Source: Haliclona indistincta
Taxonomy: Eukaryota; Porifera; Demospongiae; Haplosclerida; Chalinidae
Direction of reading: 5' to 3'
DNA: 64,000 bases
Assembly (NCBI GenBank): GCA_964017065.1
Contig: OZ024791.1
Coordinates: 8,145,471-8,209,470 of the forward strand
This document shows positions 2,522-63,686 of this stretch, piece after piece. How positions within the stretch are numbered: the stretch's first letter is position 1; the number at the start of each line of letters is the position of its first letter. The position numbers were made by a program, and so were the translations under genes. The notes beneath the pieces are model-generated. The model was not told the origin of the DNA, made no database searches, and saw nothing but the letters and a program-made list of their open reading frames with translations.

Positions 2522-3361
2522 ATGAAGCAAGGACAGTTGATCATTGGTGTGTTCCTGGTCTGTGCTGTCACTCCTTTCTCTACCTGTGATAGACACACTC
2601 GTTCTGTCAATATTACGAGTACCTGTCTTCAAGACAACCATCCTGTTCATCAGCTGATCAAAGGTCGTGATGGTCGCGATGGCTTGAATGGAAGAGATGG
2701 TCTACCAGGACCTTCAGGAGCCCCTGGGAGAAATGGACGTGATGGAACTAGGGGACAGAAAGGAGACAAGGGAGAGAGAGGAGAGGCAGGGATAGTAGGA
2801 ACACCAGGTCCTGTTAGTGGAGGAGCTACCTACACACGATGGGGGAGGACATTGTGTCCTAACATAACAGGAACAAGCCTCGTCTACAGTGGTAGAGCTG
2901 GTAAATCATGGTATGACCAACGAGGAGGAGGAAGCAACTATCAATGTCTACCAAACAACCCAGAGTATGGACAATATGCTCCTGGAGTTCAAGGCAATTC
3001 TCTCATTTTTGGAGTTGAGTATCAAACACAAAATGGCGGTCCTCTTTATCGTCTATCTCAACATAATGTTCCATGTACTGTCTGTCATGTCTCCACTAGA
3101 GCAGCTGTACTGATGATTCCAGCATGGCTTCACTGTCCTAGCCAGTGGACACTGGAGTATACTGGATACCTAATGACTGGACATAGGACTCACAACACAG
3201 GAACATTCGAGTGTGTTGATAAAGATGCAGAGTCAGTTCCTGGTAGCCATGTTGACACTAATGGAGGGTTGTTCTATCATGTTGAAGCAAGCTGTAATGG
3301 TCTAGCATGTTCTCCTTACGTTGCTGAGAAGGAGCTCACCTGTGCTGTGTGCACTAAGTGA
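2522..3361 (+). CDS. Collagen-array gene 1, secreted short-chain collagen C4-like protein
   Basis: Intact 279-residue single-exon gene. Residues 1-21 are a signal peptide; 22-47 a linker with Cys22, Cys35 and an NIT glycosylation sequon at 30; 48-98 are 17 Gly-X-Y triplets; 99-279 form a C-terminal domain with ten cysteines (112, 142, 185, 188, 205, 231, 258, 263, 274, 277). This is the layout of sponge short-chain collagens (SSCC-related family), extracellular proteins whose C-terminal domain has been related to type IV collagen NC1. Variable windows: NIT at 114, YD at 131, Ser138, QTQNGGPLYRLSQ at 168-180 (long form), TGHRTHNTGTF at 219-229, HVDTNGGL at 243. Copy-specific changes are AVTPF in the signal, TLCP and LACSPY. 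The start follows a class A TATA box and is shared by all copies. Confidence 0.92.
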   Translation: MKQGQLIIGVFLVCAVTPFSTCDRHTRSVNITSTCLQDNHPVHQLIKGRDGRDGLNGRDGLPGPSGAPGRNGRDGTRGQKGDKGERGEAGIVGTPGPVSGGATYTRWGRTLCPNITGTSLVYSGRAGKSWYDQRGGGSNYQCLPNNPEYGQYAPGVQGNSLIFGVEYQTQNGGPLYRLSQHNVPCTVCHVSTRAAVLMIPAWLHCPSQWTLEYTGYLMTGHRTHNTGTFECVDKDAESVPGSHVDTNGGLFYHVEASCNGLACSPYVAEKELTCAVCTK

Positions 3362-4060
3362 ACTCATTGCTACTAACTAGCTAGTTATAGAGGTGTGTTT
3401 GATGTTAGTGAATCGATTGAGATGTGGTATTAGTGTTAGTTTGAGTGAGCCCTATAGTGTTTCCTCACAATCAATTAGTTATCTTGTGCATATGCATCAT
3501 TCTATAAATGCCCTTATGTCCTAAATGTGTGATTTCGATTTGAAAACTTTGATATCATGTCAAGATCGTTTGCTGAGCTAGCTTTGATGAGTGGTGCACG
3601 AGAGTGATAGCAGTACGATGGAGACAAGGCAAAAATGAGTGAACAAAGGTGCCATTGAAGCAAGACACGACATGGCTGCTCATGCAAGTGCTAAGCAGTG
3701 AGAGTATGAGCTACATGGTCATGTGACAGACCAGAGTGATAGATGTATTGTGAAGGAAGCGCAAGGTGGTATTTACCAATAAGAGATCTTAGTTACCTCA
3801 GTTTGTCTTGTGTCATTCTGCTTGCTGGTTAATTGATGCTTACTGCGCTAGCTTTCATACATCTCCTACTCTCATGCTTGGATGCACCTGTACTGTAATA
3901 TCTATGATCACACAGTAGCAGAAGGATTTCAGCAACTAATAAAAGAAGCTGAAATTTGAGACAGTTAAAATACAGATTGTGATAGTTTGCTAGCGGCACT
4001 CAGTTTACTTTGTTACAAGTTGTCCAGTAGACCAACCATACCGCTCTTGTTTGATCACTT
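3362..4060. other. Gene 1 3'UTR and standard downstream spacer
   Basis: The first ~180 bp after the stop are almost identical in most copies (GAACTCATTGCTACTAACTA onward, to a TATAAATG motif near 3505 that may act in 3'-end formation). The next ~350 bp are the downstream block also found after genes 2, 4-6, 8-10, 13 and 16-19. From about 3890 the sequence switches to the class B upstream region with a CTGTAATATCTATG motif. No gene seen. Confidence 0.55.
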
Positions 4061-4290
4061 GCAAATGTATAGTGGTTCGATTATGCTAGTCAAATACTCC
4101 GCCATTTGGGCGCCATAGGCATTACTCAGACATTCGTGTATAGTGATGGATTTTATATTGTATTTATAGCTGCTGTTCCAAGAATAAGCGTATCTTCCCA
4201 CACACTCTTCTCATCTCACAAAGAGTAGCCGCGGCTAGTTTATAAGAGCATTCATTCGTTAAGTCTTCATTTACTATTACGACAGCAAGC
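4061..4290 (+). promoter_or_regulatory. Class B collagen-array promoter (gene 2)
   Basis: Upstream type shared by genes 2, 17 and 19. TTTATAAG at 4239-4246 lies 52 bp before the ATG. GTATCTTCCCACACAC precedes it, and TTGGGCGCCATAG lies near 4107. The duplicated 22-bp box and the forkhead-like palindrome of class A are absent. The GTATCTTCCCAC core is common to classes A, B and C. Confidence 0.6.
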
Positions 4291-5121
4291 ATGAAGCAAG
4301 GACAGTTGATCATTGGTGTGTTCCTGGTCTGTGCAATCATTCCTTTCTCTACCTGTGATAGACACACTCGTTCCGTCAATATTACGAGTACCTGTCTTCA
4401 AGACAACCATCCTGTTCATCAGCTGATCAAAGGTCGTGATGGTCGCGATGGCTTGAATGGAAGGGATGGTCTACCAGGACCTTCAGGAGCCCCTGGGAGA
4501 AATGGACAAGATGGAACTAGAGGACAGAAAGGAGACAAGGGAGAGAGAGGAGAGGCAGGGATAGTAGGAGCACCAGGTCCTGTTAGTGGAGGAGCTACCT
4601 ACACACGATGGGGGAGGACATCGTGTCCTAACATAGCAGGAACAAGCCTCGTCTACAGTGGTAGAGCTGGTAAATCATGGTTTGACCAACGAGGAGGAGG
4701 AGGCAACTATCAATGTCTACCAAACAACCCAGAGTATGGACAATACATTGCTGGAGTTCAAGGTTACTCTACTATATTTGGAGTAGAGTATCAAATACCA
4801 GTTCAATCTGGTCGTCACGATCACAATGTTCCATGTGCTGTCTGTCATGTCTCCACTAGAGCAGCTGTACTGATGATTCCAGTATGGCTTCACTGTCCTA
4901 GCCAGTGGACACTGGAGTATACTGGATACCTAATGACTGAATATAAGACTCACAACACAGCAACATACGAGTGTGTTGATAAAGATGCAGAGGCAGTTCC
5001 TGGTAGCAGTGCTAACACTGATGGAGGGTTGTTCTACCATGTTGAAGCAAGCTGTAATGGTCTACCATGTCCTCCTTACGTTGCTGAGAAGGAGCTCACC
5101 TGTGCTGTGTGCACTAAGTGA
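4291..5121 (+). CDS. Collagen-array gene 2, short-chain collagen C4-like protein
   Basis: Intact, 276 residues, short form of the main variable window. Domain order and ten C-terminal cysteines as in gene 1. Windows: NIA at 114 (no sequon), FD at 131, Gly138, IA/Y/T in 153-161, QIPVQSGRHD at 168-177, TEYKTHNTATY at 216-226, SANTDGGL. It carries EAVPG where most copies have ESVPG, and PVWLH where most have PAW. A class B promoter precedes it, so its regulation may differ from gene 1. Its 168-177 window and THNTATY window are nearly those of gene 14, which otherwise matches gene 13. Confidence 0.92.
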   Translation: MKQGQLIIGVFLVCAIIPFSTCDRHTRSVNITSTCLQDNHPVHQLIKGRDGRDGLNGRDGLPGPSGAPGRNGQDGTRGQKGDKGERGEAGIVGAPGPVSGGATYTRWGRTSCPNIAGTSLVYSGRAGKSWFDQRGGGGNYQCLPNNPEYGQYIAGVQGYSTIFGVEYQIPVQSGRHDHNVPCAVCHVSTRAAVLMIPVWLHCPSQWTLEYTGYLMTEYKTHNTATYECVDKDAEAVPGSSANTDGGLFYHVEASCNGLPCPPYVAEKELTCAVCTK

Positions 5122-7399: not shown

Positions 7400-8230
7400 A
7401 TGAAGCAAGGACAGTTGATCATTGCTGTGTTCCTGGTCTGTGCTATCATTCCTTTCTCTACCTGTGATAGACACACTCATTCTGTCAATATTACGAGTAC
7501 CTGTCTTCAAGACAACCATCCTGTTCATCAGCTGATCAAAGGTCGTGATGGTCGTGATGGCTCGAATGGAAGGGATGGTCTACCAGGACCTTCAGGAGCC
7601 CCTGGGAGAAATGGACGTGATGGAACTAGAGGACAGAAAGGAGACAAGGGAGAGAGAGGAGAGGCAGGGATAGTAGGGGCACCAGGTCCTGTTAGTGGAG
7701 GAGCTACCTACACATGATGGGGGAGGACATCGTGTCCTAACATAGCAGGAACAAGCCTCGTCTACAGTGGTAGAGCTGGTAAATCATGGTATGACCAACG
7801 AGGAGGAGGAACCAACTATCAATGTCTACCAAACAACCCAGAGTATGGACAGTACATTGCTGGAGTTCAAGGTTACTCTACTATATTTGGAATAGAATAT
7901 GAAGGACCAGTTCAATCTGCTCTTCAAAATCACAATGTTCCATGTGCTGTCTGTCATGTCTCCACTAGAGCAGCTGTACTGATGATTCCAGCATGGCGTC
8001 ACTGTCCTAGCCAGTGGACACTGGAGTATACTGGATACCTAATGACTGAACGTAAGACTCACAACACAGCAACATACGAGTGTGTTGATAAAGATGCAGA
8101 GTCAGTTCCTGGTAGCAGTGCTAACACTAATGGAGGGACTTTCCATCACGTTGAAGCAAGCTGTAATGGTCTACCATGTCCTCCTTACGTTGCTGAGAAG
8201 GAGCTCACCTGTGCTGTGTGCACTAAGTGA
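7400..8230 (+). pseudogene. Collagen-array gene 3, nonsense-broken copy
   Basis: An 831-bp copy in frame with the 276-residue form, interrupted at codon 106 by TGA (7715-7717). The Arg106 CGA of every other copy has become TGA, a CpG transition. It would yield only signal peptide, linker and collagen stretch (105 residues) without the cysteine-rich domain. Downstream the frame is intact to the normal stop, with NIA, YD/Thr138, EGPVQSALQN, TERKTHNTATY and SANTNGGT, so the break is recent. The promoter is class A. The truncated product could still be made and secreted. Confidence 0.88.
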
Positions 8231-9385: not shown

Positions 9386-9477
9386 CACTACTAGCCTTCC
9401 CTTCCCCTCTCTCGATAGTTCGTGTTAATAATACTTTATCAGATTGATCATACATGATATTAACAATGAAGAGTTTT

Positions 9478-11727: not shown

Positions 11728-12558
11728 ATGAAGCAAGGACAGTTGATCATTGCTGTGTTCCTGGTCTGTGCTATCATTCCTTTCTCTACCTGTGATAGAC
11801 ACACTCGTTCTGTCAATATTACGAGCAGCTGTCTTCAAGACAACCATCCTGTTCATCAGCTGATCAGGGGCCGTGATGGTCGCGATGGCTTGAATGGAAG
11901 AGATGGTCTACCAGGAGCTTCAGGAGCCACTGGGAGAAATGGACGTGATGGAGCTAGAGGACAGAAAGGAGACAAGGGAGAGAGAGGAGAGGCAGGGATA
12001 GTAGGAGCACCAGGTCCTGTTAGTGGAGGAGCTACCTACACACGATGGGGGAGGACATCGTGTCCTAACATATCAGGAACAAGCCTCGTCTACAATGGTA
12101 GAGCTGGTAAATCATGGTGGAACCGACGAGGAGGAGGAACCAACTATCAATGTCTACCAAACAACCCAGAGTATGGACAATACATTGCTGGAGTTCAAGG
12201 CAATTCTCCCATTTTTGGAGTAGAGTATACATTATCAGTTCAATCTGCTGTTAACAATCACAACGCTCCATGTGCTGTCTGTCATGTCTCCACTAGAGCA
12301 GCTGTACTGATGATTCCAGCATGGCTTCACTGTCCTAGCCAGTGGACACTGGAGTATACTGGATACCTAATGACTGAACATAATGCTCACAACGCAGCAA
12401 CATTCGAGTGTGTTGATAAAGATGCAGAGGCAGTTCCTGGAAGCCATGTTAACACTAATGGAGGGGAGTTCTACCATGTTGAAGGAAGCTGTAATGGTCT
12501 ACCATGTCCTCCTTACGTTGCTGAGAAGGAGCTCACCTGTGCTGTGTGCACTAAGTGA
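11728..12558 (+). CDS. Collagen-array gene 4, short-chain collagen C4-like protein
   Basis: Intact, 276 residues, class A promoter. It is among the more divergent copies. The linker has SSCLQ and HQLIRGRDG, the collagen stretch has GLPGASGATGRNG, and windows are NIS at 114 (sequon), WN plus Arg instead of Gln at 131-133, Thr138, TLSVQSAVNN at 168-177, HNAPC, TEHNAHNAATF and HVNTNGGE, with VEGSC for VEASC. All ten C-terminal cysteines and all 17 Gly-X-Y triplets are kept, so the protein should fold like its neighbours. Confidence 0.92.
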   Translation: MKQGQLIIAVFLVCAIIPFSTCDRHTRSVNITSSCLQDNHPVHQLIRGRDGRDGLNGRDGLPGASGATGRNGRDGARGQKGDKGERGEAGIVGAPGPVSGGATYTRWGRTSCPNISGTSLVYNGRAGKSWWNRRGGGTNYQCLPNNPEYGQYIAGVQGNSPIFGVEYTLSVQSAVNNHNAPCAVCHVSTRAAVLMIPAWLHCPSQWTLEYTGYLMTEHNAHNAATFECVDKDAEAVPGSHVNTNGGEFYHVEGSCNGLPCPPYVAEKELTCAVCTK

Positions 12559-16286: not shown

Positions 16287-17129
16287 ATGAAGCAAGGACA
16301 GTTGATCATTGCTGTGTTCCTGGTCTGTGCTATCATTCCTTTCTCTACCTGTGATAGACACACTCGTTCTGTCAATGTTACGAGTACCTGTCATCGACAC
16401 AAGCATCCAAGGAGATCAAAGGTTAATCAATGGATCAAAGGTTGCATTGGCCGTGATGGTCGCGATGGCTTGAATGGAAGGGATGGTCTACCAGGACCTT
16501 CAGGAGCCCCTGGGAAAAATGGACAAGATGGAGCTAGAGGACAGAAGGGAGAGAGAGGAGAGGCAGGGATAGTAGGAGCACCAGGTCCTGTTAGTGGAGG
16601 AGCTACCTACACACGATGGGGGAGGACATCGTGTCCTAGCATAACAGGAACAAGCCTCGTCTACAGTGGTAGAGCTGGTAAATCGTGGTATGACCAACGA
16701 GGAGGAGGAGGCAACTATCAATGTCTACCAAACAACCCAGAGTATGGACAATACGTTGCTGGAGTTCAAGGCAAATCTCTTATATTTGGAGTAGAGTATG
16801 AAGGACCAGTTCAATCTGCTCTTCACAATCACAATGTTCCATGTGCTGTCTGTCATGTCTCCACTAGAGCAGCTGTACTGATGATTCTAGCATGGCGTCA
16901 CTGTCCTAGCCAGTGGACACTGGAGTATACTGGATACCTAATGGCTGGATTTAAGGATTATGGCATGAGTACATACGAGTGTGTTGATAAAGATGCAGAG
17001 TCAGTTCCTGGTAGCAGTGCTAACACTGATGGAGGGTCGTTCTTTCATGTTGAAGCAAGCTGTAATGGTCTAGCATGTCCTCCTTACGTTGCTGAGAAGG
17101 AGCTCACCTGTGCTGTGTGCACTAAGTGA
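16287..17129 (+). CDS. Collagen-array gene 5, basic-linker variant
   Basis: Intact, 280 residues. The linker after STC is replaced by a His/Arg/Lys-rich stretch ([17 protein letters not shown]) and an extra cysteine in GCI, giving one additional collagen triplet at the start. The GDK triplet present in all other copies is missing, so the triplet number remains 17. NVT replaces NIT at residue 30. Windows: SIT (no sequon), YD, Gly, VA/K/L, EGPVQSALHN, AGFKDYGMSTY (the most divergent version of that window) and SANTDGGS. RR-SK could be a furin-like site (inference). The basic linker is shared with genes 10 and 11, which also share the A' upstream region. Confidence 0.92.
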   Translation: MKQGQLIIAVFLVCAIIPFSTCDRHTRSVNVTSTCHRHKHPRRSKVNQWIKGCIGRDGRDGLNGRDGLPGPSGAPGKNGQDGARGQKGERGEAGIVGAPGPVSGGATYTRWGRTSCPSITGTSLVYSGRAGKSWYDQRGGGGNYQCLPNNPEYGQYVAGVQGKSLIFGVEYEGPVQSALHNHNVPCAVCHVSTRAAVLMILAWRHCPSQWTLEYTGYLMAGFKDYGMSTYECVDKDAESVPGSSANTDGGSFFHVEASCNGLACPPYVAEKELTCAVCTK

Positions 17130-19132: not shown

Positions 19133-19133
<1 letters not shown>

Positions 19134-19622: not shown

Positions 19623-20453
19623 ATGAAGCAAGGGCAGTTGATCATTTCTGTGTTCCTGGTCTGTGCTATCATTCCTTTCTCTACCTGTGATAGACACACT
19701 CGTTCTGTCAATATTACGAGTACCTGTCTTCAAGACAACCATCCTGTTCATCAGCTGATCAAAGGTCGTGATGGTCGTGATGGCTTGAATGGAAGAGATG
19801 GTCTACCAGGACCTTCAGGAGCTCCTGGGAGAAATGGACAAGATGGAACTAGAGGACAGAAAGGAGACAAGGGAGAGAGAGGAGAGGCAGGGATAGTAGG
19901 AGCACCAGGTCCTGTTAGTGGAGGAGCTACCTACACACGATGGGGGAGGACATCGTGTCCTAACATAACAGGAACAAGCCTCGTCTACAGTGGTAGAGCT
20001 GGTAAATCATTGTATAATCAAAAAGGAGGAGGAGGCAACTATCAATGTCTACCAAACAACCCAGAGTATGGACAGTACGTTGCTGGAGTTCAAGGTTTTT
20101 CTCCTATATTTGGAGTAGAGTATGAATTTCCAGTTCAATCTGCTCTATTTCAACATAATGTTCTATGTGTTGTCTGTCATGTCTCCACTAGAGCAGCTGT
20201 ACTGATGATTCCAGCATGGCGTCACTGTCCTAGCCAGTGGACACTGGAGTATACTGGATACTTAATGACTGAACGCAGTATTCACAACTCAGCAACATAC
20301 GAGTGTGTTGATAAAGATGCAGAGTCAGTTCCTGGTAGCAGTGCTAACACTGATGGAGGGTTGTTCTACAATGTTGAAGCAAGCTGTTATGTTCTACCAT
20401 GTCCTCCTTACGTTGCTGAGAAGGAGCTCACCTGTGCTGTGTGCACTAAGTGA
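19623..20453 (+). CDS. Collagen-array gene 6, short-chain collagen C4-like protein
   Basis: Intact, 276 residues, class A promoter. Its C-terminal domain departs from otherwise invariant positions. Trp130 is Leu (KSLYNQKGGG, also Arg134 to Lys), the HNVPCAVC core reads HNVLCVVC, and SCNGLPC reads SCYVLPC. All ten cysteines remain. Windows: NIT (sequon), YN, Gly138, [25 protein letters not shown] (shared with gene 10) and SANTDGGL. Changes at invariant sites could mean weaker constraint or a shifted partner preference. Confidence 0.9.
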   Translation: MKQGQLIISVFLVCAIIPFSTCDRHTRSVNITSTCLQDNHPVHQLIKGRDGRDGLNGRDGLPGPSGAPGRNGQDGTRGQKGDKGERGEAGIVGAPGPVSGGATYTRWGRTSCPNITGTSLVYSGRAGKSLYNQKGGGGNYQCLPNNPEYGQYVAGVQGFSPIFGVEYEFPVQSALFQHNVLCVVCHVSTRAAVLMIPAWRHCPSQWTLEYTGYLMTERSIHNSATYECVDKDAESVPGSSANTDGGLFYNVEASCYVLPCPPYVAEKELTCAVCTK

Positions 20454-22472: not shown

Positions 22473-23312
22473 ATGAAGCAAGGACAGTTGATCATTGCTG
22501 TGTTCCTGGTCTGTGCTATCATTCCTTTCTCTACCTGTGATAGACACACTCGTTCTGTCAATATTACGAGTACCTGTCTTCAAGACAACCATCCTGTTCA
22601 TCAGCTGATCAAAGGTCGTGATGGTCGTGATGGCTTGAATGGAAGGGATGGCCTACCAGGACCTTCAGGAGCCCCTGGGAGAAATGGACAAGATGGAACT
22701 AGAGGACAGAAAGGAGACAAGGGAGAGAGAGGAGAGGCAGGGATAGTAGGAGCACCAGGCCCTGTTAGTGGAGGAGCTACCTACACACGATGGGGGAGGA
22801 CATCGTGTCCTAACATAACAGGAACAAGCCTCGTATACAGTGGTAGAGCTGGTAAATCATGGTATAACCAACGAGGAGGAGGAGGCAACTATCAATGTCT
22901 ACCAAACAACCCAGACTATGGACAATACATTGCTGCAGTTCAAAACTATTCTCCTATTTTTGGAGTTGAGTATCAATCACAAGATGGTGGTCCTCTTTCT
23001 CGTCTATTTAACCACAATGTTCCATGTGCTGTCTGTCATGTCTCCACTAGAGCAGCTGTACTGATGATTCCAGCATGGCTTCACTGTCCTAGCCAGTGGA
23101 CACTGGAGTATACTGGATACCTAATGAGTGAATATAAGACTCACAACTCAGCAACATTCGAGTGTGTTGATAAAGATGCAGAGTCAGTTCCTGGTAGTGG
23201 GGCTAACACTGATGGCGGGGTGTTCCATCATGTTGAAGCAAGCTGTAATGGTCTACCATGTCCTCCTTACGTTGCTGAGAAGGAGCTCACCTGTGCTGTG
23301 TGCACTAAGTGA
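22473..23312 (+). CDS. Collagen-array gene 7, short-chain collagen C4-like protein
   Basis: Intact, 279 residues (long form), class A promoter. Windows: NIT (sequon), YN, Gly138, PDYGQYIAAVQNYS (Glu148 to Asp, Gly155 to Ala and Gly158 to Asn in a normally fixed frame), QSQDGGPLSRLFN at 168-180, SEYKTHNSATF and GANTDGGVFHH. The SQD-GGPLSRL core is shared with genes 16 and 20. Only 389 bp separate its stop from gene 8, the tightest spacing in the array; the usual downstream block is missing and a class C promoter begins almost at once. Confidence 0.92.
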   Translation: MKQGQLIIAVFLVCAIIPFSTCDRHTRSVNITSTCLQDNHPVHQLIKGRDGRDGLNGRDGLPGPSGAPGRNGQDGTRGQKGDKGERGEAGIVGAPGPVSGGATYTRWGRTSCPNITGTSLVYSGRAGKSWYNQRGGGGNYQCLPNNPDYGQYIAAVQNYSPIFGVEYQSQDGGPLSRLFNHNVPCAVCHVSTRAAVLMIPAWLHCPSQWTLEYTGYLMSEYKTHNSATFECVDKDAESVPGSGANTDGGVFHHVEASCNGLPCPPYVAEKELTCAVCTK

Positions 23313-23701
23313 ACTCATTGCTACTAACTAGCTAGCTGTGTTGTACAGTAGGGTGTGTATAGTCACTGTAGTTTATATTCAAATATACCTTACACCAAAG
23401 GTATCTTAGTTTACAATGTTACAAATTACTAGCAAGTGAGCCCATACCGTTTTTGTTTGATCGCTTGTAATTATATGGTTTACAACTGCGGCTCAGCTTT
23501 GTTTGGGAAATATTCAGTCATTGTGGCGCCATATTTTGTGTTATATTTGTGAAGTCGCAGAAGAATGTTTGAGTAAGCGTATCTTCCCACACACAAATCT
23601 CATCATCTTTAAGATTTCACTAAGAGTGCCGGCTGGTTATATAAGAGAGTTCGGTCAATACTGTTCATACTATTGTTAAGCTGCCATCAGCTGCAACAAG
23701 C
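23313..23701 (+). promoter_or_regulatory. Class C promoter of gene 8
   Basis: Upstream type shared by genes 8, 15, 22 and, inverted, the relic at 31330-31503. TATATAAG at 23638-23645 lies 64 bp before the ATG. GTATCTTCCCACACAC lies near 23579 and TGTGGCGCCATA near 23524. In each + strand instance it follows a collagen 3' end (gene 7 here, relics at 42211 and 62352), so 3' end plus class C promoter travel as one duplicated unit. Confidence 0.65.
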
Positions 23702-24544
23702 ATGAAGCAAGGACAGTTGATCATTGCTGTGTTCCTGGTCTGTGCTATCATTCCTTTCTCTACCTGTGATAGACACACTCGTTCTGTCAATATTACGAGT
23801 ACCTGTCTTCAAGACAACCATCCTGTTCATCAGCTGATCAAAGGTCGTGATGGTCGCGATGGCTTGAATGGAAGGGATGGTCTACCAGGACCTTCAGGAG
23901 CCCCTGGGAGAAATGGACGTGATGGAACTAGAGGACAAAAAGGAGACAAGGGAGAGAGAGGAGAGGCAGGGATAGTAGGAGCACCAGGTCCTGTTAGTGG
24001 AGGAACTACCTACACACGATGGGGGAGGACATCGTGTCCTAACATAACAGGAACAAGCCTCGTCTACAGTGGTAGAGCTGGTAAATCATGGTATAACCAA
24101 CGAGGAGGAGGAAGCAACTATCAATGTCTACCAAACAATCCAGAGTATGGACAATATGCTCCTGGAGTTCAAGGCAATTCTCCTATTTTTGGAGTAGAGT
24201 ATGAAGCAAGCAGTGGAGTTGGTCCTCTTTCTCGTCTATACCATCACAATGTTCCATGTGCTGTCTGTCATGTCTCCACTAGAGCAGCTGTACTGATGAT
24301 TCCAGCATGGCGTCACTGTCCTAGCCAATGGACACTGGAGTATACTGGATACCTAATGACTCAACGTAGGGATTTGAACGCAGCTACATTCGAGTGTGTT
24401 GATAAAGATGCAGAGTCAGTTTCTGGTAGCAGTGCTGATACTAATGGAGGGTTGTTCTACCATGTTGAAGCAAGCTGTAATGGTCTACCATGTCCTCCGT
24501 ACGTTGCTGAGAAGGAGCTCACCTGTGCTGTGTGCACTAAGTGA
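23702..24544 (+). CDS. Collagen-array gene 8, longest variable window
   Basis: Intact, 280 residues. It has the longest main window, EASSGVGPLSRLYH (14 residues at 168-181, one more than the long form), and a unique TQRRDLNAATF window. Other windows: NIT (sequon), YN, Ser138, AP/N/P, SADTNGGL. GGTTYT replaces GGATYT, and SVSGS replaces SVPGS. The promoter is class C. Collagen triplets and cysteines complete. Confidence 0.92.
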   Translation: MKQGQLIIAVFLVCAIIPFSTCDRHTRSVNITSTCLQDNHPVHQLIKGRDGRDGLNGRDGLPGPSGAPGRNGRDGTRGQKGDKGERGEAGIVGAPGPVSGGTTYTRWGRTSCPNITGTSLVYSGRAGKSWYNQRGGGSNYQCLPNNPEYGQYAPGVQGNSPIFGVEYEASSGVGPLSRLYHHNVPCAVCHVSTRAAVLMIPAWRHCPSQWTLEYTGYLMTQRRDLNAATFECVDKDAESVSGSSADTNGGLFYHVEASCNGLPCPPYVAEKELTCAVCTK

Positions 24545-25483: not shown

Positions 25484-26323
25484 ATGAAGCAAGGACAGTT
25501 GATCATTGCTGTGTTCCTGGTCTGTGCTATCATTCCTTTCTCTACCTGTGATAGACACACTCGTTCTGTCAATATTACGAGTACCTGTCTTCAAGACAAC
25601 CATCCTGTTCATCAGCTGATCAAAGGTCGTGATGGTCGCGATGGCTTGAATGGAAGGGATGGTCTACCAGGACCTTCAGGAGCCCCTGGGAGAAATGTAC
25701 GTGATGGAACTAGAGGACAGAAAGGAGACAAGGGAGAGAGAGGAGAGGCAGGGATAGTAGGAGCACCAGGTCCTGTTAGTGGAGGAGCTACCTACACACG
25801 ATGGGGGAGGACATCGTGTCCTAGCATAACAGGAACAAGCCTCGTCTGCAGTGGTAGAGCTGGTAAATCATGGTATGACCAACGAGGAGGAGGAAGCAAC
25901 TATCAATGTCTACCAAACAACCCAGAGTATGGACAATATAGACCTGGAGTTCAGGGCCGTTCTCTTATTTTTGGAGTTGAGTATCAAACATACACTGGTG
26001 GTCCTCTTTCCCGTCTATATGATCACAATGTTCCATGTGCTGTCTGTCATGTCTCCACTAGAGCAGCTGTACTGATGATTCCAGCATGGCTTCACTGTCC
26101 TAGCCAGTGGACACTGGAGTATACTGGATACCTAATGACTGAACATCATACTCACAACACAGCAACATACGAGTGTGTTGATAAAGATGCAGAGTCAGTT
26201 CCTGGTAGCAGTGCTGATGCTCATGGAGGGACGTTCTATCATGTTGAAGCAAGCTGTAATGGTCTACCATGTCCTCCTTATGTTGCTGAGAAGGAGCTCA
26301 CCTGTGCTGTGTGCACTAAGTGA
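25484..26323 (+). CDS. Collagen-array gene 9, with a glycine interruption
   Basis: Intact, 279 residues, class A promoter. Gly72 of the triplet run is Val (GRN-VRD-GTR), which would kink the triple helix. In the C-terminal domain Tyr122 is Cys (SLVCSG), giving eleven cysteines. Windows: SIT (no sequon), YD, Ser138, RP/R/L, QTYTGGPLSRLYD, TEHHTHNTATY and SADAHGGT. RPG at 153 is shared with gene 15, and the TYTGGPLSR core with gene 17. The two damaging-looking changes may mark early decay despite the open frame. Confidence 0.9.
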   Translation: MKQGQLIIAVFLVCAIIPFSTCDRHTRSVNITSTCLQDNHPVHQLIKGRDGRDGLNGRDGLPGPSGAPGRNVRDGTRGQKGDKGERGEAGIVGAPGPVSGGATYTRWGRTSCPSITGTSLVCSGRAGKSWYDQRGGGSNYQCLPNNPEYGQYRPGVQGRSLIFGVEYQTYTGGPLSRLYDHNVPCAVCHVSTRAAVLMIPAWLHCPSQWTLEYTGYLMTEHHTHNTATYECVDKDAESVPGSSADAHGGTFYHVEASCNGLPCPPYVAEKELTCAVCTK

Positions 26324-42713: not shown

Positions 42714-43544
42714 ATGAAGCAAGGACAGTTGATCATTGCTGTGTTCCTGGTCTGTGCTATCATTCCTTTCTCTACCTGTGATAGACACACTCGTTCTGTC
42801 AATATTACGAGTACCTGTCTTCAAGACAACCATCCTGTTCATCAGCTGATCAAAGGTCGTGATGGTCGCGATGGCTTGAATGGAAGGGATGGTCTACCAG
42901 GACCTTCAGGAGCCCCTGGGAGAAATGGACGTGATGGAACTAGAGGACAGAAAGGAGACAAGGGAGAGAGAGGAGAGGCAGGGATAGTAGGAGCACCAGG
43001 TCCTGTTAGTGGAGGAGCTACCTACACACGATGGGGGAGGACATCGTGTCCTAGCATAACAGGAACAAGCCTCGTCTACAGTGGTAGAGCTGGTAAATCA
43101 TGGTGGAACCAACGAGGAGGAGGAGCCAACTATCAATGTCTACCAAACAACCCAGAGTATGGACAATATAGACCTGGAGTTCAAGGTCACTCTACTATAT
43201 TTGGATTAGAATATGAAGGACCGGTTCCATTTCCTCTTCATGATCACAATGTTCCATGTGCTGTCTGTCATGTCTCCACTAGAGCGGCTGTACTGATGAT
43301 TCCAGCATGGCGTCACTGTCTTAGCCAGTGGACACTGGAGTATACTGGATACCTAATGAGTGAAAAACATACTTCCAATTCAGCAACATTCGAGTGTGTT
43401 GATAAAGATGCAGAGTCAGTTCCTGGTAGTGGTGCTAACACTGATGGAGGGACGTTCCATCACGTTGAAGCAAGCTGTAATGGTCTACCATGTTCTCCTT
43501 ACGTTGCTGAGAAGGAGCTCACCTGTGCTGTGTGCACTAAGTGA
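42714..43544 (+). CDS. Collagen-array gene 15, short-chain collagen C4-like protein
   Basis: Intact, 276 residues, class C promoter. Windows: SIT (no sequon), WN, Ala138, RP/H/T, EGPVPFPLHD (the only short-form copy where VQSA is VPFP), SEKHTSNSATF and GANTDGGTFHH. The FGVEY core reads FGLEY, HCPSQ reads HCLSQ, and LPCPPY reads LPCSPY. All triplets and cysteines present. RPG at 153 is shared with gene 9. Confidence 0.92.
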   Translation: MKQGQLIIAVFLVCAIIPFSTCDRHTRSVNITSTCLQDNHPVHQLIKGRDGRDGLNGRDGLPGPSGAPGRNGRDGTRGQKGDKGERGEAGIVGAPGPVSGGATYTRWGRTSCPSITGTSLVYSGRAGKSWWNQRGGGANYQCLPNNPEYGQYRPGVQGHSTIFGLEYEGPVPFPLHDHNVPCAVCHVSTRAAVLMIPAWRHCLSQWTLEYTGYLMSEKHTSNSATFECVDKDAESVPGSGANTDGGTFHHVEASCNGLPCSPYVAEKELTCAVCTK

Positions 43545-44942: not shown

Positions 44943-45782
44943 ATGAAGCAAGGACAGTTGATCATTGCTGTGTTCCTGGTCTGTGCAATCATTCCTTTCT
45001 CTACCTGTGATAGACACACTCGTTCTGTCAATATTACGAGTACCTGTCTTCAAGACAACCATCCTGTTCATCAGCTGATCAAAGGTCGTGATGGTCGCGA
45101 TGGCTTGAATGGAAGGGATGGTCTACCAGGACCTTCAGGAGCCCCTGGGAGAAATGGACGTGATGGAACTAGAGGACAGAAAGGAGACAAGGGAGAGAGA
45201 GGAGAGGCAGGGATAGTAGGAGCACCAGGTCCTGTTAGTGGAGGAGCTACCTACACACGATGGGGGAGGACATCGTGTCCTAACATAGCAGGGACAAGCC
45301 TCGTGTACAGTGGTAAAGCTGGTAAATCATGGTTCTACCAACGAGGAGGAGGAGGCAACTATCAATGTCTACCAAACAACCCAGAGTATGGACAATATAT
45401 TGCTGGAGTTCAAGGTCACTCTCCTATATTTGGAGTTGAGTATCAATCACAAGATCGCGGTCCTCTTTCCCGTCTATATGATCACAATGTTCCATGTGCT
45501 GTCTGTCATGTCTCCAACAGAGCAGCTGTACTGATGATTCCAGCATGGCGTCACTGTCCTAGCCAGTGGACACTGGAGTATACTGGATACCTAATGAGTG
45601 AACGTAGTACTCACAACACAGCAACATACGAGTGTGTTGATAAAGATGCAGAGTCAGTTCCTGGTAGCAGTGTTAGCACTGATGGAGGGTTGTTCTACCA
45701 TGTTGAAGCAAGCTGTAATGGTCTACCATGTCCTCCTTACGTTGCTGAGAAGGAGCTCACCTGTGCTGTGTGCACTAAGTGA
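44943..45782 (+). CDS. Collagen-array gene 16, short-chain collagen C4-like protein
   Basis: Intact, 279 residues (long form), class A promoter. Windows: NIA (no sequon), FY after Trp130 (unique), Gly138, IA/H/P, QSQDRGPLSRLYD, SERSTHNTATY and SVSTDGGL. The conserved SGRAGKS reads SGKAGKS, and HVSTRAA reads HVSNRAA. The QSQD window links it to genes 7 and 20. A standard downstream block follows for about 560 bp. Confidence 0.92.
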   Translation: MKQGQLIIAVFLVCAIIPFSTCDRHTRSVNITSTCLQDNHPVHQLIKGRDGRDGLNGRDGLPGPSGAPGRNGRDGTRGQKGDKGERGEAGIVGAPGPVSGGATYTRWGRTSCPNIAGTSLVYSGKAGKSWFYQRGGGGNYQCLPNNPEYGQYIAGVQGHSPIFGVEYQSQDRGPLSRLYDHNVPCAVCHVSNRAAVLMIPAWRHCPSQWTLEYTGYLMSERSTHNTATYECVDKDAESVPGSSVSTDGGLFYHVEASCNGLPCPPYVAEKELTCAVCTK

Positions 45783-46780: not shown

Positions 46781-47620
46781 ATGAAGCAAGGACAGTTGAT
46801 CATTGGTGTGTTCCTGGTCTGTGCTATCATTCCTTTCTCTACCTGTGATAGACACACTCGTTCTGTCAATATTACGAGTACCTGTCTTCAAGACAACCAT
46901 CCTGTTCATCAGCTGATCAAAGGTCGTGATGGTCGTGATGGCTTGAATGGAAGGGATGGTCTACCAGGACCTTCAGGAGCCCCTGGGAGAAATGGACAAG
47001 ATGGAACTAGAGGACAGAAAGGAGACAAGGGAGAGAGAGGAGAGGCAGGGATAGTAGGAGCACCAGGTCCTGTTAGTGGAGGAGCTACCTACACACGATG
47101 GGGGAGGACATCGTGTCCTAACAGAACAGGAACAAGCCTCGTCTACAGTGGTAGAGCTGGTAAATCATGGTTTGATCAACGAGGAGGAGGAGGCAACTAT
47201 CAATGTCTACCAAACAACCCAGAGTATGGACACTACATTGCTGGAGTTCAGGATTACTCTCCTATATTTGGAGTAGAGTATGAAACATACACTGGTGGTC
47301 CTCTTTCCCGTCGACATGATCACAATGTTCCATGTGCTGTCTGTCATGTCTCCACTAGAGCAGCTGTACTGATGATTCCAGCATGGCGTCACTGTCCTAG
47401 CCAGTGGACACTGGAGTATACTGGATACCTAATGACTGAATATAAGAATCACAACACAGCAACATACGAGTGTGTTGATAAAGATGCAGAGTCAGTTCCT
47501 GGTAGTGGTGCTAACACTAATGGAGGGTTATTCTATCGTGTTGAAGCTAGCTGTAATGGTCTACCATGTCCTCCTTACGTTGCTGAGAAGGAGCTCACCT
47601 GTGCTGTGTGCACTAAGTGA
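46781..47620 (+). CDS. Collagen-array gene 17, short-chain collagen C4-like protein
   Basis: Intact, 279 residues, class B promoter. Windows: NRT (sequon), FD, Gly138, GHYIAGVQDYS (Gln151 to His, Gly158 to Asp), ETYTGGPLSRRHD, TEYKNHNTATY and GANTNGGLFYR. RRHD at the end of the long window resembles the RHD of genes 2 and 14 joined to a long-form start, suggesting recombination inside the window. Standard 3'UTR follows. Confidence 0.92.
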   Translation: MKQGQLIIGVFLVCAIIPFSTCDRHTRSVNITSTCLQDNHPVHQLIKGRDGRDGLNGRDGLPGPSGAPGRNGQDGTRGQKGDKGERGEAGIVGAPGPVSGGATYTRWGRTSCPNRTGTSLVYSGRAGKSWFDQRGGGGNYQCLPNNPEYGHYIAGVQDYSPIFGVEYETYTGGPLSRRHDHNVPCAVCHVSTRAAVLMIPAWRHCPSQWTLEYTGYLMTEYKNHNTATYECVDKDAESVPGSGANTNGGLFYRVEASCNGLPCPPYVAEKELTCAVCTK

Positions 47621-48558: not shown

Positions 48559-49398
48559 ATGAAGCAAGGACAGTTGATCATTGCTGTGTTCCTGGTCTGT
48601 GCTATCATTCCTTTCTCTACCTGTGATAGACACACTCGTTCTGTCAATATTACGAGTACCTGTCTTCAAGACAACCATCCTGTTCATCAGCTGATCAAAG
48701 GTCGTGATGGTCGCGATGGCTTGAATGGAAGGGATGGTCTACCAGGACCTTCAGGAGCCCCTGGGAGAAATGGACGTGATGGAACTAGAGGACAGAAAGG
48801 AGACAAGGGAGAGAGAGGAGAGGCAGGGATAGTAGGAGCACCAGGTCCTGTTAGTGGAGGAGCTACCTACACACGATGGGGGAGGACATCGTGTCCTAAC
48901 AGAACAGGAACAAGCCTCGTCTACAGTGGTAGAGCTGGTAAATCATGGTATGACCAACGAGGAGGAGGAGGCAACTATCAATGTCTACCAAACAACCCAG
49001 AGTATGGACAATATGCTCCTGGAGTTCAAGGCAATTGTCTCATTTTTGGAGTTGAGTATCAAACACAAAGTGGCGGTCCTCTTTATCGTCTATCTCAACA
49101 TAATGTTCCATGTGCTGTCTGTCATGTCTCCACTAGAGCAGCTGTACTGATGATTCCAGCATGGCGTCACTGTCCTAGCCAGTGGACATTGGAGTATACT
49201 GGATACCTAATGTCTGAACATCATACTTACAACACAGCAACATTCGAGTGTGTTGATAAAGATGCAGAGTCAGTTCCTGGTAGCCATGTTGACACTAATG
49301 GAGGGTTGTTCTATCATGTTGAAGCAAGCTGTAATGGTCTAGCATGTTCTCCTTACGTTGCTGAGAAGGAGCTCACCTGTGCTGTGTGCACTAAGTGA
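48559..49398 (+). CDS. Collagen-array gene 18, short-chain collagen C4-like protein
   Basis: Intact, 279 residues, class A promoter. Windows: NRT (sequon), YD, Gly138, AP, then NCL in place of NSL (an eleventh C-terminal cysteine), QTQSGGPLYRLSQ, SEHHTYNTATF and HVDTNGGL with LACSPY. The 168-180 window and the whole 3' end are nearly those of gene 1, 46 kb away, but the 219-229 window is not, which is evidence of segmental exchange. Confidence 0.92.
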   Translation: MKQGQLIIAVFLVCAIIPFSTCDRHTRSVNITSTCLQDNHPVHQLIKGRDGRDGLNGRDGLPGPSGAPGRNGRDGTRGQKGDKGERGEAGIVGAPGPVSGGATYTRWGRTSCPNRTGTSLVYSGRAGKSWYDQRGGGGNYQCLPNNPEYGQYAPGVQGNCLIFGVEYQTQSGGPLYRLSQHNVPCAVCHVSTRAAVLMIPAWRHCPSQWTLEYTGYLMSEHHTYNTATFECVDKDAESVPGSHVDTNGGLFYHVEASCNGLACSPYVAEKELTCAVCTK

Positions 49399-51530: not shown

Positions 51531-52361
51531 ATGAAGCAAGGGCAGTTGATCATTGCTGTGTTCCTGGTCTGTGCTATCATTCCTTTCTCTACCTGTGATA
51601 GACACACTCGTTCTGTCAATATTACGAGTACCTGTCTTCAAGACAACCATCCTGTTCATCAGCTGATCAAAGGTCGTGATGGTCGCGATGGCTTAAATGG
51701 AAGGGATGGTCTACCAGGACCTTCAGGAGCCCCTGGGAGAAATGGACAAGATGGAACTAGAGGACAGAAAGGAGACAAGGGAGAGAGAGGAGAGGCAGGG
51801 ATAGTAGGAGCACCAGGTCCTGTTAGTGGAGGAGCTACCTACACACGATGGGGGAGGACATCGTGTCCTAGCATAGCAGGAACAAGCCTCGTCTACAGTG
51901 GTAGAGCTGGTAATTCATGGTTCAACCAACGAGGAGGAGGAAGCAACTATCAATGTCTACCAAACAACCCAGAGTATGGACAGTACATTGCTGGAGTTCA
52001 AGGTTATTCTCTTATATTTGGAGTAGAGTATGAAAGACCAGTTCAATCTGCTCTTTACAATCACAATGTTCCATGTGCTGTCTGTCATGTCTCCACAAGA
52101 GCAGCTGTACTGATGATTCCAGCATGGCTTCACTGTCCTAGCCAGTGGACACTGGAGTATACTGGATACCTAATGAGTGAATATAAGAATCACAACTCAG
52201 CAACATTCGAGTGTGTTGATAAAGATCCAGAGTCAGTTCCTGGTAGTGGTGCTAGCACTAATGGAGGGTTGTTCCATCATGTTGAAGCAAGCTGTAATGG
52301 TCTACCATGTCCTCCTTACGTTGCTGAGAAGGAGCTCACCTGTGCTGTGTGCACTAAGTGA
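51531..52361 (+). CDS. Collagen-array gene 19, short-chain collagen C4-like protein
   Basis: Intact, 276 residues, class B promoter. Windows: SIA at 114 (both sequon positions changed), SGRAGNSW for [10 protein letters not shown], Ser138, IA/Y/L, ERPVQSALYN (close to gene 11), SEYKNHNSATF, DPESVPG and GASTNGGLFHH. It is the last array gene before the C-terminal exons of SUDS3 copy B, 818 bp downstream. Confidence 0.92.
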   Translation: MKQGQLIIAVFLVCAIIPFSTCDRHTRSVNITSTCLQDNHPVHQLIKGRDGRDGLNGRDGLPGPSGAPGRNGQDGTRGQKGDKGERGEAGIVGAPGPVSGGATYTRWGRTSCPSIAGTSLVYSGRAGNSWFNQRGGGSNYQCLPNNPEYGQYIAGVQGYSLIFGVEYERPVQSALYNHNVPCAVCHVSTRAAVLMIPAWLHCPSQWTLEYTGYLMSEYKNHNSATFECVDKDPESVPGSGASTNGGLFHHVEASCNGLPCPPYVAEKELTCAVCTK

Positions 52362-56331: not shown

Positions 56332-57171
56332 ATGAAGCAAGGACAGTTGATTATTGCTGTGTTCCTGGTCTGTGCTATCATTCCTTTCTCTACCTGTGAT
56401 AGACACACTCGTTCTGTCAATATTACGAGTACCTGTCTTCAAGACAACCATCCTGTTCATCAGCTGATCAAAGGTCGTGATGGTCGCGATGGCTTGAATG
56501 GAAGGGATGGTCTACCAGGACCTTCAGGAGCCCCTGGGAGAAATGGACAAGATGGAACTAGAGGACAGAAAGGAGACAAGGGAGAGAGAGGAGAGGCAGG
56601 GATAGTAGAAGCACCAGGTCCTGTTAGTGGAGGAGCTACCTACACACGATGGGGGAGGACATCGTGTCCTAACATGACAGGAACAAGCCTCGTCTACAGT
56701 GGTAGAGCTGGTAAATCATGGTATAACCAACGAGGAGGAGGAAGCAACTATCAATGTCTACCAAACAACCCAGAGTATGGACAATACATTACTGGAGTTC
56801 AAGGCCATTCTCCTATATTTGGAGTTGAGTATCAATCACAAGATGGTGGTCCTCTTTCCCGTCTATATGATCACAATGTTCCATGTGCTGTCTGTCATGT
56901 CTCCACTAGAGCAGCTGTACTGATGATTCCAGCATGGCTTCATTGTCCTAGCCAGTGGACACTGGAGTATACTGGATACCTAATGACTGGAGCTAAGATT
57001 TCCAATACAGCAACATACGAGTGTGTTGATAAAGATGCAGAGTCAGTTCCTGGTAGCAGTCCTAATACTAATGGAGGGTTGTTCTATCATGTTGAAGCAA
57101 GCTGTACTGGTCTAGCATGTACTCCTTACGTTGCTGAGAAGGAGCTCACCTGTGCTGTGTGCACTAAGTGA
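56332..57171 (+). CDS. Collagen-array gene 20, with a glycine interruption
   Basis: Intact, 279 residues, class A promoter. Gly93 of the collagen run is Glu (GIV-EAP-GPV), close to the C-terminal end of the helix. Windows: NMT (sequon), YN, Ser138, ITGVQGHSP, QSQDGGPLSRLYD (group of genes 7 and 16), TGAKISNTATY and [17 protein letters not shown] reads SCTGLACTP. First array gene after SUDS3 copy C exons. Confidence 0.91.
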   Translation: MKQGQLIIAVFLVCAIIPFSTCDRHTRSVNITSTCLQDNHPVHQLIKGRDGRDGLNGRDGLPGPSGAPGRNGQDGTRGQKGDKGERGEAGIVEAPGPVSGGATYTRWGRTSCPNMTGTSLVYSGRAGKSWYNQRGGGSNYQCLPNNPEYGQYITGVQGHSPIFGVEYQSQDGGPLSRLYDHNVPCAVCHVSTRAAVLMIPAWLHCPSQWTLEYTGYLMTGAKISNTATYECVDKDAESVPGSSPNTNGGLFYHVEASCTGLACTPYVAEKELTCAVCTK

Positions 57172-59540: not shown

Positions 59541-60371
59541 ATGAAGCAAGGACAGTTGATCATTGCTGTGTTCCTGGTCTGTGCTATCATTCCTTTCTCT
59601 ACCTGTGATGGACACACTCGTTCTGTCAATATTACGAGTACCTGTCTTCAAGACAACCATCCTGTTCATCAGCTGATCAAAGGTCGTGATGGTCGCGATG
59701 GCTTGAATGGAAGAGATGGTCTACCAGGACCTTCAGGAGCCCCTGGGAGAAATGGACGTGATGGAACTAGAGGACAGAAAGGAGACAAGGGAGAGAGAGG
59801 AGAGGCAGGGATAGTAGGAGCACCAGGTCCTGTTAGTGGAGGAGCTACCTACACACGATGGGGGAGGACATCGTGTCCTAACATGACAGGAACAAGCCTC
59901 GTCTACAGTGGTAGAGCTGGTAAATCATGGCATAACCAACGAGGAGGAGGAGGCAACTATCAATGTCTACCAAACAACCCAGAGTATGGACAATACATTG
60001 CTGGAGTTCAGGGTTACTCTCTTATATTTGGAGTAGAGTATAAAGTACCAGTTCAATCTGGTCTTTACCATCACAACGCTCCATGTGCTGTCTGTCATGT
60101 CTCCACTAGAGCAGCTGTACTGATGATTCCATCATGGCTTCACTGTCCTAGCCAGTGGACACTGGAGTATACTGGATACCTAATGAGTCAATATAAGGAT
60201 TACAACACAGCAACATTCGAGTGTGTTGATAAAGATGCAGAGTCAGTTCCTGGTAGTGGTGCTAACACTGGTGGAGGGACGTTCTATCATGTTGAAGCAA
60301 GCTGTAATGGTCTACCATGTCCTCCTTACGTTGCTGAGAAGGAGCTCACCTGTGCTGTGTGCACTAAGTGA
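59541..60371 (+). CDS. Collagen-array gene 21, short-chain collagen C4-like protein
   Basis: Intact, 276 residues, class A promoter. CDGHTRS replaces CDRHTRS in the linker. Windows: NMT (sequon), HN after Trp130 (only copy with His), Gly138, IA/Y/L, KVPVQSGLYH, HNAPC (as in gene 4), PSWLH for PAW, SQYKDYNTATF and GANTGGGT. Its downstream flank is the paralogue of that of gene 14, including both minisatellites, the SINE and a collagen 3' relic leading to a class C gene. Confidence 0.92.
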   Translation: MKQGQLIIAVFLVCAIIPFSTCDGHTRSVNITSTCLQDNHPVHQLIKGRDGRDGLNGRDGLPGPSGAPGRNGRDGTRGQKGDKGERGEAGIVGAPGPVSGGATYTRWGRTSCPNMTGTSLVYSGRAGKSWHNQRGGGGNYQCLPNNPEYGQYIAGVQGYSLIFGVEYKVPVQSGLYHHNAPCAVCHVSTRAAVLMIPSWLHCPSQWTLEYTGYLMSQYKDYNTATFECVDKDAESVPGSGANTGGGTFYHVEASCNGLPCPPYVAEKELTCAVCTK

Positions 60372-62156: not shown

Positions 62157-62167
62157 TTAGGATACTT

Positions 62168-62351: not shown

Positions 62352-62474
62352 CCTGATAGCAGTGCTAACACTAATGGAGGGTTGTTCTATCATGTCGAAG
62401 CAAGCTGTAATGGTCTAGCATGTCCTCCTTACGTTGCTGAGAAGGAGCTCACCTGTGCTGTGTGCACTAAGTGA
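62352..62474 (+). pseudogene. Collagen-array 3' relic before gene 22
   Basis: The last ~40 codons of an array gene with the normal stop at 62472-62474, fused to the SINE at the same breakpoint as the relic at 42211. The cysteine lost in that relic is intact here. Confidence 0.85.
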
Positions 62475-62855
62475 ACTCATTGCTACTAACTAGCTAGCTG
62501 TGTTGTACAGTAGGGTGTGTATAGTCACTGTTAGAACTTTTATTCGAATATACCTTACACCAAAGGTATCTTAGTTTACAATGTTACAAGTGAGCCCATA
62601 ATGGTTTTGTTTGATCGCTTGTAATTATATGGTTTACAACTGCAGCTCAGCTTTGTTTGGGAAATATTCAGTCATTGTGGTGCCATAGTTTGTATTATAT
62701 TTGTGAAGTCGCAGAAGAATGTTCGAGTAAGCGTATCTTCCCACACACAAATCTCATCATCTGTAAGATTTCACTAAGAGTGCCGACTGGTTTTATAAGA
62801 GAGTTCGGTCAATACTGTTCATACTATTGTTAAGCTGTCATCAGCTACAGCAAGC
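62475..62855 (+). promoter_or_regulatory. Class C promoter of gene 22
   Basis: Class C region with GTATCTTCCCACACAC near 62733 and TTTATAAG at 62792-62799, 64 bp before the ATG. Confidence 0.6.
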
Positions 62856-63686
62856 ATGAAGCAAGGACAGTTGATCATTGCTGTGTTCCTGGTCTGTGCT
62901 ATCATTCCTTTCTCTACCTGTGATAGACACACTCGTTCTGTCAATATTACGAGTACCTGTCTTCAAGACAACCATCCTGTTCATCAGCTGATCAAAGGTC
63001 GTGATGGTCGTGATGGCTTGAATGGAAGGGATGGTCTACCGGGACCTTCAGGAGCCCCTGGGAGAAATGGACGTGATGGAACTAGAGGACAGAAAGGAGA
63101 CAAGGGAGAGAGAGGAGAGGCAGGGATAGTAGGAGCACCAGGTCCTGTTAGTGGAGGAGCTACCTACACACGATGGGGGAGGACATCGTGTCCTAACAGA
63201 ACAGGAACAAGCCTCGTCTACAGTGGTAGAGCTGGTAAATCATGGTGGGACCAGCGAGGAGGAGGAAGCAACTATCAATGTATGCTAAATAACCCAGAGT
63301 ATGATCGATTTGTTCCTGGGGTTCAGGGATACTCTCCTATATTTGGAGTAGAATATGGAGGACCAGTTCAATCTGCTCTTCACGATCACAATGTTCCATG
63401 TGCTGTCTGTCATGTCTCCACTAGAGCAGCTGTACTGATGATTCCAGCATGGCGTCACTGTCCTAGCCAGTGGACACTGGAGTATACTGGATACCTAATG
63501 ACTGGACATAAGACTCACAACACAGGAACTTTCGAGTGTGTTGATAAAGATGCAGAGTCAGTTCCTGGTAGCAGTGCTGACACTAATGGAGGGGTGTTCC
63601 ATCCTGTTGAAGCAAGCTGTAATGGTCTACCATGTCCTCCTTACGTTGCTGAGAAGGAGCTCACCTGTGCTGTGTGCACTAAGTGA
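62856..63686 (+). CDS. Collagen-array gene 22, short-chain collagen C4-like protein
   Basis: Intact, 276 residues, class C promoter. Diverged around the first windows: NRT (sequon), WD, Ser138, then YQCMLNNPEYDRFVPG in place of YQCLPNNPEYGQYIAG, the strongest departure in this stretch. Others: [21 protein letters not shown] (as gene 1) and SADTNGGVFHP. The standard 3'UTR follows to the window end, so the array may continue. Confidence 0.92.
   Translation: MKQGQLIIAVFLVCAIIPFSTCDRHTRSVNITSTCLQDNHPVHQLIKGRDGRDGLNGRDGLPGPSGAPGRNGRDGTRGQKGDKGERGEAGIVGAPGPVSGGATYTRWGRTSCPNRTGTSLVYSGRAGKSWWDQRGGGSNYQCMLNNPEYDRFVPGVQGYSPIFGVEYGGPVQSALHDHNVPCAVCHVSTRAAVLMIPAWRHCPSQWTLEYTGYLMTGHKTHNTGTFECVDKDAESVPGSSADTNGGVFHPVEASCNGLPCPPYVAEKELTCAVCTK

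Follow-up and report, generated by a model that had tools for sequence, protein, structure and literature searches.

Introduction

How can gene copies that are nearly uniform over most of their length each encode a different protein? The question is raised by a window of 64,000 nucleotides (nt) on contig C9 of the sponge Haliclona indistincta, in which 22 genes for collagen-tailed proteins follow one another and replacements gather in six short segments of the C-terminal head. We propose that the copies are homogenised by conversion and that selection maintains diversity in their recognition loops, and give this reading a probability of roughly 0.55.

Results

An array of short-chain collagen genes

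The 22 copies are head-to-tail direct repeats over 2522..63686 (Table 1), as the first-pass annotation had described, with a start-to-start spacing of 1,229-4,801 nt. Twenty contain an open single-exon frame of 255-283 codons from ATG to stop, and c03 and c12 are broken. On contig C9 the array extends beyond the window by three further copies, one of them broken; the 22 intact C9 heads referred to below are the 20 in the window and two beyond it. All 22 are different proteins, and the earlier claim that no two intact copies have the same variable segments holds.

Each product begins with a hydrophobic N-terminus, which makes secretion probable; a short linker joins this to the collagen stretch, and the head that ends the protein has about 180 residues, ten of them cysteines. 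Every one of the ten cysteine columns is filled in all 22 C9 heads, as it is in 162-165 of the 165 family rows, and this bears out a cysteine-rich head, with a uniform cysteine framework, on a collagen tail. The 17-triplet collagen stretch of the first-pass annotation is found in 15 of the 20 intact copies; in the others the longest Gly-X-Y run is 18 triplets (three copies), 15 (one copy) or eight (c09), the last because one Gly of the triple helix is replaced.

A model of the c09 head (181 residues), based on a structure alignment of c09 with 93 of 120 listed homologues, had collagen IV NC1 domains at ranks 1-27 among its best 50 Foldseek matches. On this model the head is collagen IV NC1-like and of the spongin short-chain collagen (SSCC) family ("short-chain collagen C4"). 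In the available part of PMC5395295, SSCCs are recognised by ten NC1 cysteines, seven in common with collagen IV and three their own, and by the lack of an HSQ motif, and the collagen IV triple helix is given as long, interrupted and about 1400 residues. The C9 products share with SSCCs a short run of Gly-X-Y triplets, a C-terminal domain of NC1 type after it, and conserved cysteines to a total of ten; the HSQ motif occurs in 0/165 family rows. They differ from collagen IV in that runs reach at most 18 triplets in proteins of 255-283 amino acids (aa), and in that the collagen IV NC1 has about 225 residues. Pfam C4 (PF01413) was not matched in the two copies scanned (E up to 1), in which Collagen was the sole family matched; a genome-wide search for a C4 match to the head also gave none, in a search run without a positive control, so that absence is not implied. 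Against PDB sequences, the head by itself gave two matches, both due to chance.

The first-pass annotation had compared the proteins with defence collagens. The comparison with C1q, collectins and ficolins stands for the layout of collagen tail and globular head, and fails for the head itself, which is not homologous: no C1q, C-type lectin or fibrinogen-like domain was matched by Pfam in the same two copies (E up to 1), and the head model points to collagen IV NC1.

A search of the genome (144 megabases (Mb), 46 contigs) found 115 matches to the head, of which many are fragmentary. Besides C9 they lie mostly on contig C3, near 0.66, 0.79-0.80, 0.97-1.04 and 1.36-1.41 Mb; in other places copies occur singly or in pairs. 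As a second array we used 19 fetched C3 copies with an open head frame, several C3 matches not being fetched; L043 (end-motif filter) and the broken heads at 972073 and 1394679 were left out. Three near-identical copies were also dropped (16/19 kept), except for the dN/dS values. Two C3 loci in opposite orientation and 0.7 Mb apart, L055 (C3:662801-664300) and L052 (C3:1363201-1364700), are 99.93% identical over 1,468 nt, the result either of a segmental duplication in inverted orientation or of duplication in the assembly.

Replacements are confined to six head segments

Codon comparisons excluded the broken c03 and c12, and a 19-copy table also excluded c13. Across these 19 copies, replacement divergence (dN) was 0.293 and silent divergence (dS) 0.235 in the six variable segments, against 0.019 and 0.055 in the NC1 domain outside them. 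The collagen stretch gave 0.019 and 0.052, and the signal peptide 0.014 and 0.034. Replacement and silent change in the segments thus both exceed the local background, and silent variation returns to background about four codons from a segment. The clustering of replacements in these six segments that had been noted earlier is clear, as is the confinement of the diversity kept between copies to head loops.

Only two segments had dN/dS above 1 in nearly all resamples: 219-229, at 2.42 (bootstrap 1.05-7.10), and 114-116, whose three codons gave a dN of 0.22 and a dS of 0.007. Tree-based site models of selection were set aside because the copies recombine too much to be described by a single tree. 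The N-glycosylation sequon at 114-116 is off in as many C9 heads as it is on (Table 1), and is present in 66/165 family rows. Outside the segments, residue 203, just ahead of a CPSQW motif, is Leu or Arg in an 11 to 11 split among the 22 heads.

Most variable positions would lie in loops: 49 of the 56 segment positions, and 35 of the 42 that carry at least three residues, fall outside predicted strands. Variability per position in C9 correlates with that among 84 distant homologues (rho 0.56 over 176 positions), and the habit of varying at these positions is therefore old. The protein search gave 1,694 relatives; among the 120 listed, P0003, which lies on a contig of 1.33 Mb and represents 41 sequences, has a similar N-terminus with other segment sequences, and P0043 represents 83 sequences at 63% identity.

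Table 1. Gene copies, relics and variable head segments (coordinates of the window; segments on c01)
Feature	Position	Strand	Remark
c01	2522..3361	+	intact, 279 aa
c02	4291..5121	+	intact, 5' flank class B
c03	7400..8227	+	broken, in-frame stop in head
c04	11728..12558	+	intact
c05	16287..17129	+	intact, second N-terminal type
c06	19623..20453	+	intact
c07	22473..23312	+	intact
c08	23702..24544	+	intact, 5' flank class C
c09	25484..26323	+	intact frame, head modelled; one triple-helix Gly replaced
c10	27952..28803	+	intact, second N-terminal type
c11	30162..31013	+	intact, second N-terminal type
c12	33107..33936	+	broken, frame lost within head
c13	35388..36155	+	intact, third N-terminal type, 5' flank class D
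c14	39029..39859	+	intact
c15	42714..43544	+	intact, 5' flank class C
c16	44943..45782	+	intact
c17	46781..47620	+	intact, 5' flank class B
c18	48559..49398	+	intact
c19	51531..52361	+	intact, 5' flank class B
c20	56332..57171	+	intact
c21	59541..60371	+	intact
c22	62856..63686	+	intact, 5' flank class C
3' relic of gene copy, 41 codons	42208..42330	+	upstream of c15
3' relic of gene copy, 39 codons	62355..62471	+	upstream of c22
Segment 1, residues 114-116	2861..2869	+	N-glycosylation sequon in 11/22 C9 heads
Segment 2, residues 131-138	2912..2935	+	hhalign: collagen IV 44-51, overlapping SM1 end (37-45); by eye on SM1
Segment 3, residues 153-161	2978..3004	+	hhalign: collagen IV 67-75, in loop 62-77 with chloride (ClA) motif
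Segment 4, residues 168-180	3023..3061	+	hhalign: collagen IV 82-103, around Met93 (SM3)
Segment 5, residues 219-229	3176..3208	+	hhalign: start at collagen IV 146-152, in SM1' (144-154)
Segment 6, residues 242-253	3245..3280	+	pseudo-symmetry counterpart of segment 3, by eye

Replacement variants are common against a uniform background

If copies are frequently homogenised, neutral differences between them are expected to be recent and therefore rare. A variant counted as common if three or more copies had it. Columns of the alignment were used when at least 18 C9 codons filled them, which removes the indels of segment 168-180. By this measure 57/112 replacement variants in the C9 segments are common. 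In the NC1 framework, by comparison, 5/33 silent and 4/45 replacement variants are common; of the silent ones that lie over three codons away from any segment, 0/16 are. From the signal peptide to the collagen stretch 3/17 silent variants are common (16 copies, c05, c10, c11 and c13 being left out), and in the 3' untranslated region (3'UTR) 0/11, in the 16 copies out of 22 whose 3' flank is the common one. This contrast, between common replacement variants in the segments and rare silent framework and 3'UTR variants, is a new observation.

The C9 comparison is partly circular, because the segments were picked for their variability, and C3 and the homologue-ranked positions serve as independent checks. 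In C3, with the segments fixed on C9, replacement variants are common in 38/65 cases versus 8/37 for framework silent variants. When positions are ranked by the 84 distant homologues, 40/81 replacement variants are common in the most variable quarter, versus 3/32 in the conserved half.

Probable shuffling of the segments by exchange between copies

In C9, linkage among biallelic sites more than three bases apart is close to the level that sampling alone gives (mean r2 0.04-0.07), and 4/718 residue pairs between segments reached p = 1/301, where 2.4 are expected. The adjacent segments 153-161 and 168-180 covary, as do, weakly, 153-161 and 242-253, and no others. Neighbouring copies are not more alike than copies far apart. 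A PHI-like test was positive in C3 (0/1000 permutations at or below the observed value) and uninformative in C9 (794/1000), as expected with linkage already lost.

The two arrays share variation. C9 and C3 have both bases in common at 44 of 156 segment sites, with one fixed difference there and five in 372 framework sites outside the segments, and exact tracts of up to 122 nt occur in both. Together with the near linkage equilibrium of the segments, which is found in C9 and not in C3, these shared polymorphisms are likewise new.

The flanks point in the same direction. The first-pass annotation had described near-identical untranslated regions and signal peptides. The former is true within classes: over the 100 nt that precede the ATG, the average difference is 0.017 in 5' flank class A, 0.040 in B and 0.043 in C (class A further upstream, 0.052), and over the first 100 nt past the stop the median is 0.010. 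The mean there is 0.057 (190 pairs), because a few copies carry another 3' flank, and the 5' flanks, assigned by eye, fall into four classes, A with 15 copies, B and C with three each and D with one. As for the signal peptide, there are three N-terminal types: the common one, that of c05, c10 and c11, and that of c13. The same head stands behind three types of N-terminus and 5' flanks of four classes; this, together with 3' relics of gene copies, is a sign of unequal exchange. The relics, of which there is one more at C9:8215126-8215251, sit 400-500 nt upstream of class C copies, and those before c15 and c22 (two of three checked) are in a 500-nt block with 95% identity to the c07-c08 junction. 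We infer that gene conversion is the agent of exchange.

Four flank classes stand ahead of one homogenised coding sequence in the 110 nt before each ATG (for example 2412-2521, 4181-4290, 23592-23701 and 35278-35387), and TATA-like boxes are seen in classes A, B and C. Different classes could possibly drive different expression, as judged from sequence. Between c20 and c21, a minus-strand open frame of 413 codons (57856-59097) resembles a retrotransposon reverse transcriptase by eye. A phage search with the left flank of the array gave no match.

Selection, drift or hypermutation in the segments

Several results weigh against selection as the cause of the segment diversity. High silent divergence in the segments, which the first-pass annotation had named as telling against its own proposal, is found in part: across the 22 heads dS is 0.26 in the segments versus 0.056 outside, and overall segment dN/dS is 1.04 (codon bootstrap 0.64-1.74). 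Two segments, 153-161 and 242-253, lie below 1 (0.65 and 0.57), segment dN/dS in the C3 array is 0.65 (19 copies), and four-fold sites with matching first two bases differ by 0.133 in the segments versus 0.022 outside. By itself, dN/dS is no proof of positive selection over the segments as a whole. Silent C9 segment variants are common in 17/36 cases, and at homologue-ranked positions silent variants show no difference (11/27 common in the variable quarter versus 9/28 in the conserved half). In C3, 23/386 residue pairs between segments reached p = 1/301, with 1.3 expected, so that segments are not independent there. Finally, SSCCs are treated as matrix or shell proteins in the available parts of PMC5395295 and PMC12040131.

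A rival reading is a structural spongin with unconstrained loops, in which change is tolerated, mismatches locally block conversion, and the loops drift while the rest is homogenised. This would account for the joint rise of dS and dN, for the return of silent variation to background so close to a segment, and for variation at the same positions in distant homologues. It would also fit the similar segment spectra: common silent variants are what linked passengers would give but likewise what drifting loops would give, and since they are as common as replacement variants, the spectra leave room for lack of constraint with local failure of conversion. Against it stand segment 114-116, which has next to no silent divergence and yet carries common replacement variants, the dN/dS above 1 of 219-229, and the Gly codons 135-137 within the second segment, which are without silent variation across 22 copies. 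We consider unconstrained loops unlikely, though an account to be reckoned with. Selection is favoured because common replacement variants sit where silent sites are homogenised, at 114-116, and because the frequency spectrum repeats in the C3 array.

Targeted hypermutation of the segments in the germ line would raise silent and replacement changes alike, as is seen, and some invariant segment codons do carry silent change (Q157 in 0.42, S242 in 0.42 and G248 in 0.26 of same-residue pairs). In contrast, G249 and F251, like G135-G137, lie inside segments and have none, and the variants are not private: they are common from copy to copy, and C3 often has them too. We regard this mechanism as highly improbable.

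The segments and the collagen IV docking loops

The modelled fold raises the possibility of a matrix-assembly code, in which the loops decide the partner of each NC1 head, inside a trimer or from trimer to trimer, through matching or non-matching tags that are possibly a mark of the individual. In the available parts of PMC5395295 and PMC6211539, the collagen IV NC1 is a recognition module in chain selection. The available text of PMC6211539 assigns SM1, SM1', SM3 and the loops listed in Table 1 to trimer closure and head-to-head docking. In a further new observation, three of the segments, 153-161, 168-180 and 219-229, align with such loops at low confidence, and 131-138 reaches the end of SM1. 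If the alignment is right, loops that close and dock the trimer in collagen IV would include some that are hypervariable here.

This placement comes from hhalign in local mode, with the head family against seven NC1 sequences from collagen IV (probability 30, E 5.5e-4); global mode was unusable, and a separate comparison of profiles also gave a weak match to collagen IV (26 over 35 columns). By eye the head has two pseudo-symmetric halves, in which 131-138 pairs with 219-229 and 153-161 with 242-253. A position of 242-253 on the ClB loop is suggested by this pseudo-symmetry alone, and hhalign gives no such placement.

Covariation between 153-161 and 242-253 would be in line with pairing, and is weakly present: Mantel tests gave 6/5000 in C9 and 6/5000 in C3 for nucleotides, and 46/5000 and 8/5000, respectively, for residues. 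However, 15 segment pairs were tested and the C9 residue value fails correction; moreover, in C9 the covariation is stronger for the adjacent 153-161 and 168-180, and C3 has equally strong pairs, such as 153-161 with 219-229. SSCCs are also modelled without the domain-swapping region in the available part of PMC5395295, so docking may not be conserved. A matrix code of this kind seems to us improbable, though it deserves a place among the contenders.

A more far-reaching form of it is that an early animal lineage made the NC1 docking face into a combinatorial hypervariable surface, shuffled by conversion across dozens of copies, such that the sequence of a secreted matrix trimer would decide whether it pairs with another, and would serve as the mark of an individual or of a tissue. 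We hold this to be quite unlikely. If true, it would be a recognition system built from extracellular matrix instead of receptors.

Discussion

We favour the reading in which homogenisation by conversion and selection for diverse recognition loops act together on the C9 array. In this mechanism the array would encode a repertoire of SSCC trimers, each with a short triple helix and collagen IV NC1-like heads. Exchange between copies, by gene conversion and unequal exchange and probably across contigs too, would keep variation low in the signal peptide, the collagen tail, the framework of the head and the adjacent flanks, and the same fine-scale exchange would shuffle the six head loops. Selection favouring differing loops would let these escape homogenisation. 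The loops of each copy would then form a different binding surface, and the set of trimers could recognise many partners. Candidate ligands may be microbes or symbionts, or other NC1 heads.

Clustered protocadherins are tandem paralogues with homogenised and diverse parts in one gene, and recognition resides in the diverse part. The C9 genes likewise combine homogenised and diverse parts; protocadherins differ in being membrane cadherins, and the likeness here is one of sequence pattern alone. In sea urchins, the diversity of the Sp185/333 (SpTransformer) genes is tied to exchange between copies and to immune challenge. Both are diverse gene families, of unrelated proteins, and the diversity here lies in short loop segments. 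The large diversity among Sp185/333 members is described in the available parts of PMC1988830, PMC3091723 and PMC8634487.

For SSCCs, the parts of the literature available to us describe neither hypervariability limited to loops, nor variants that separate arrays have in common, nor a background that is uniform, and no earlier description of hypervariable SSCC heads was found in the open-access literature, which lacks most subscription journals. What the accessible passages do report is varied. In adult Amphimedon, short-chain collagens are up, alongside scavenger receptor and cadherin families (PMC3447736), and an Amphimedon grafting study names collagen once, as a barrier during graft rejection (PMC5450542). 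Two spongin-like proteins are up in the pedal disc of Exaiptasia (PMC6626399), and one oyster SSCC is treated as part of shell formation (PMC12040131). Three of four Nematostella spongin-like proteins are mainly expressed in neuroglandular cells (PMC12549020), which may fit a secreted rather than a skeletal role.

If the heads are a selected hypervariable repertoire, sponges and other invertebrates would carry a large secreted recognition family on a scaffold from which basement membranes are built elsewhere. Such a family would be a concrete candidate for how sponges distinguish microbes, symbionts or conspecifics.

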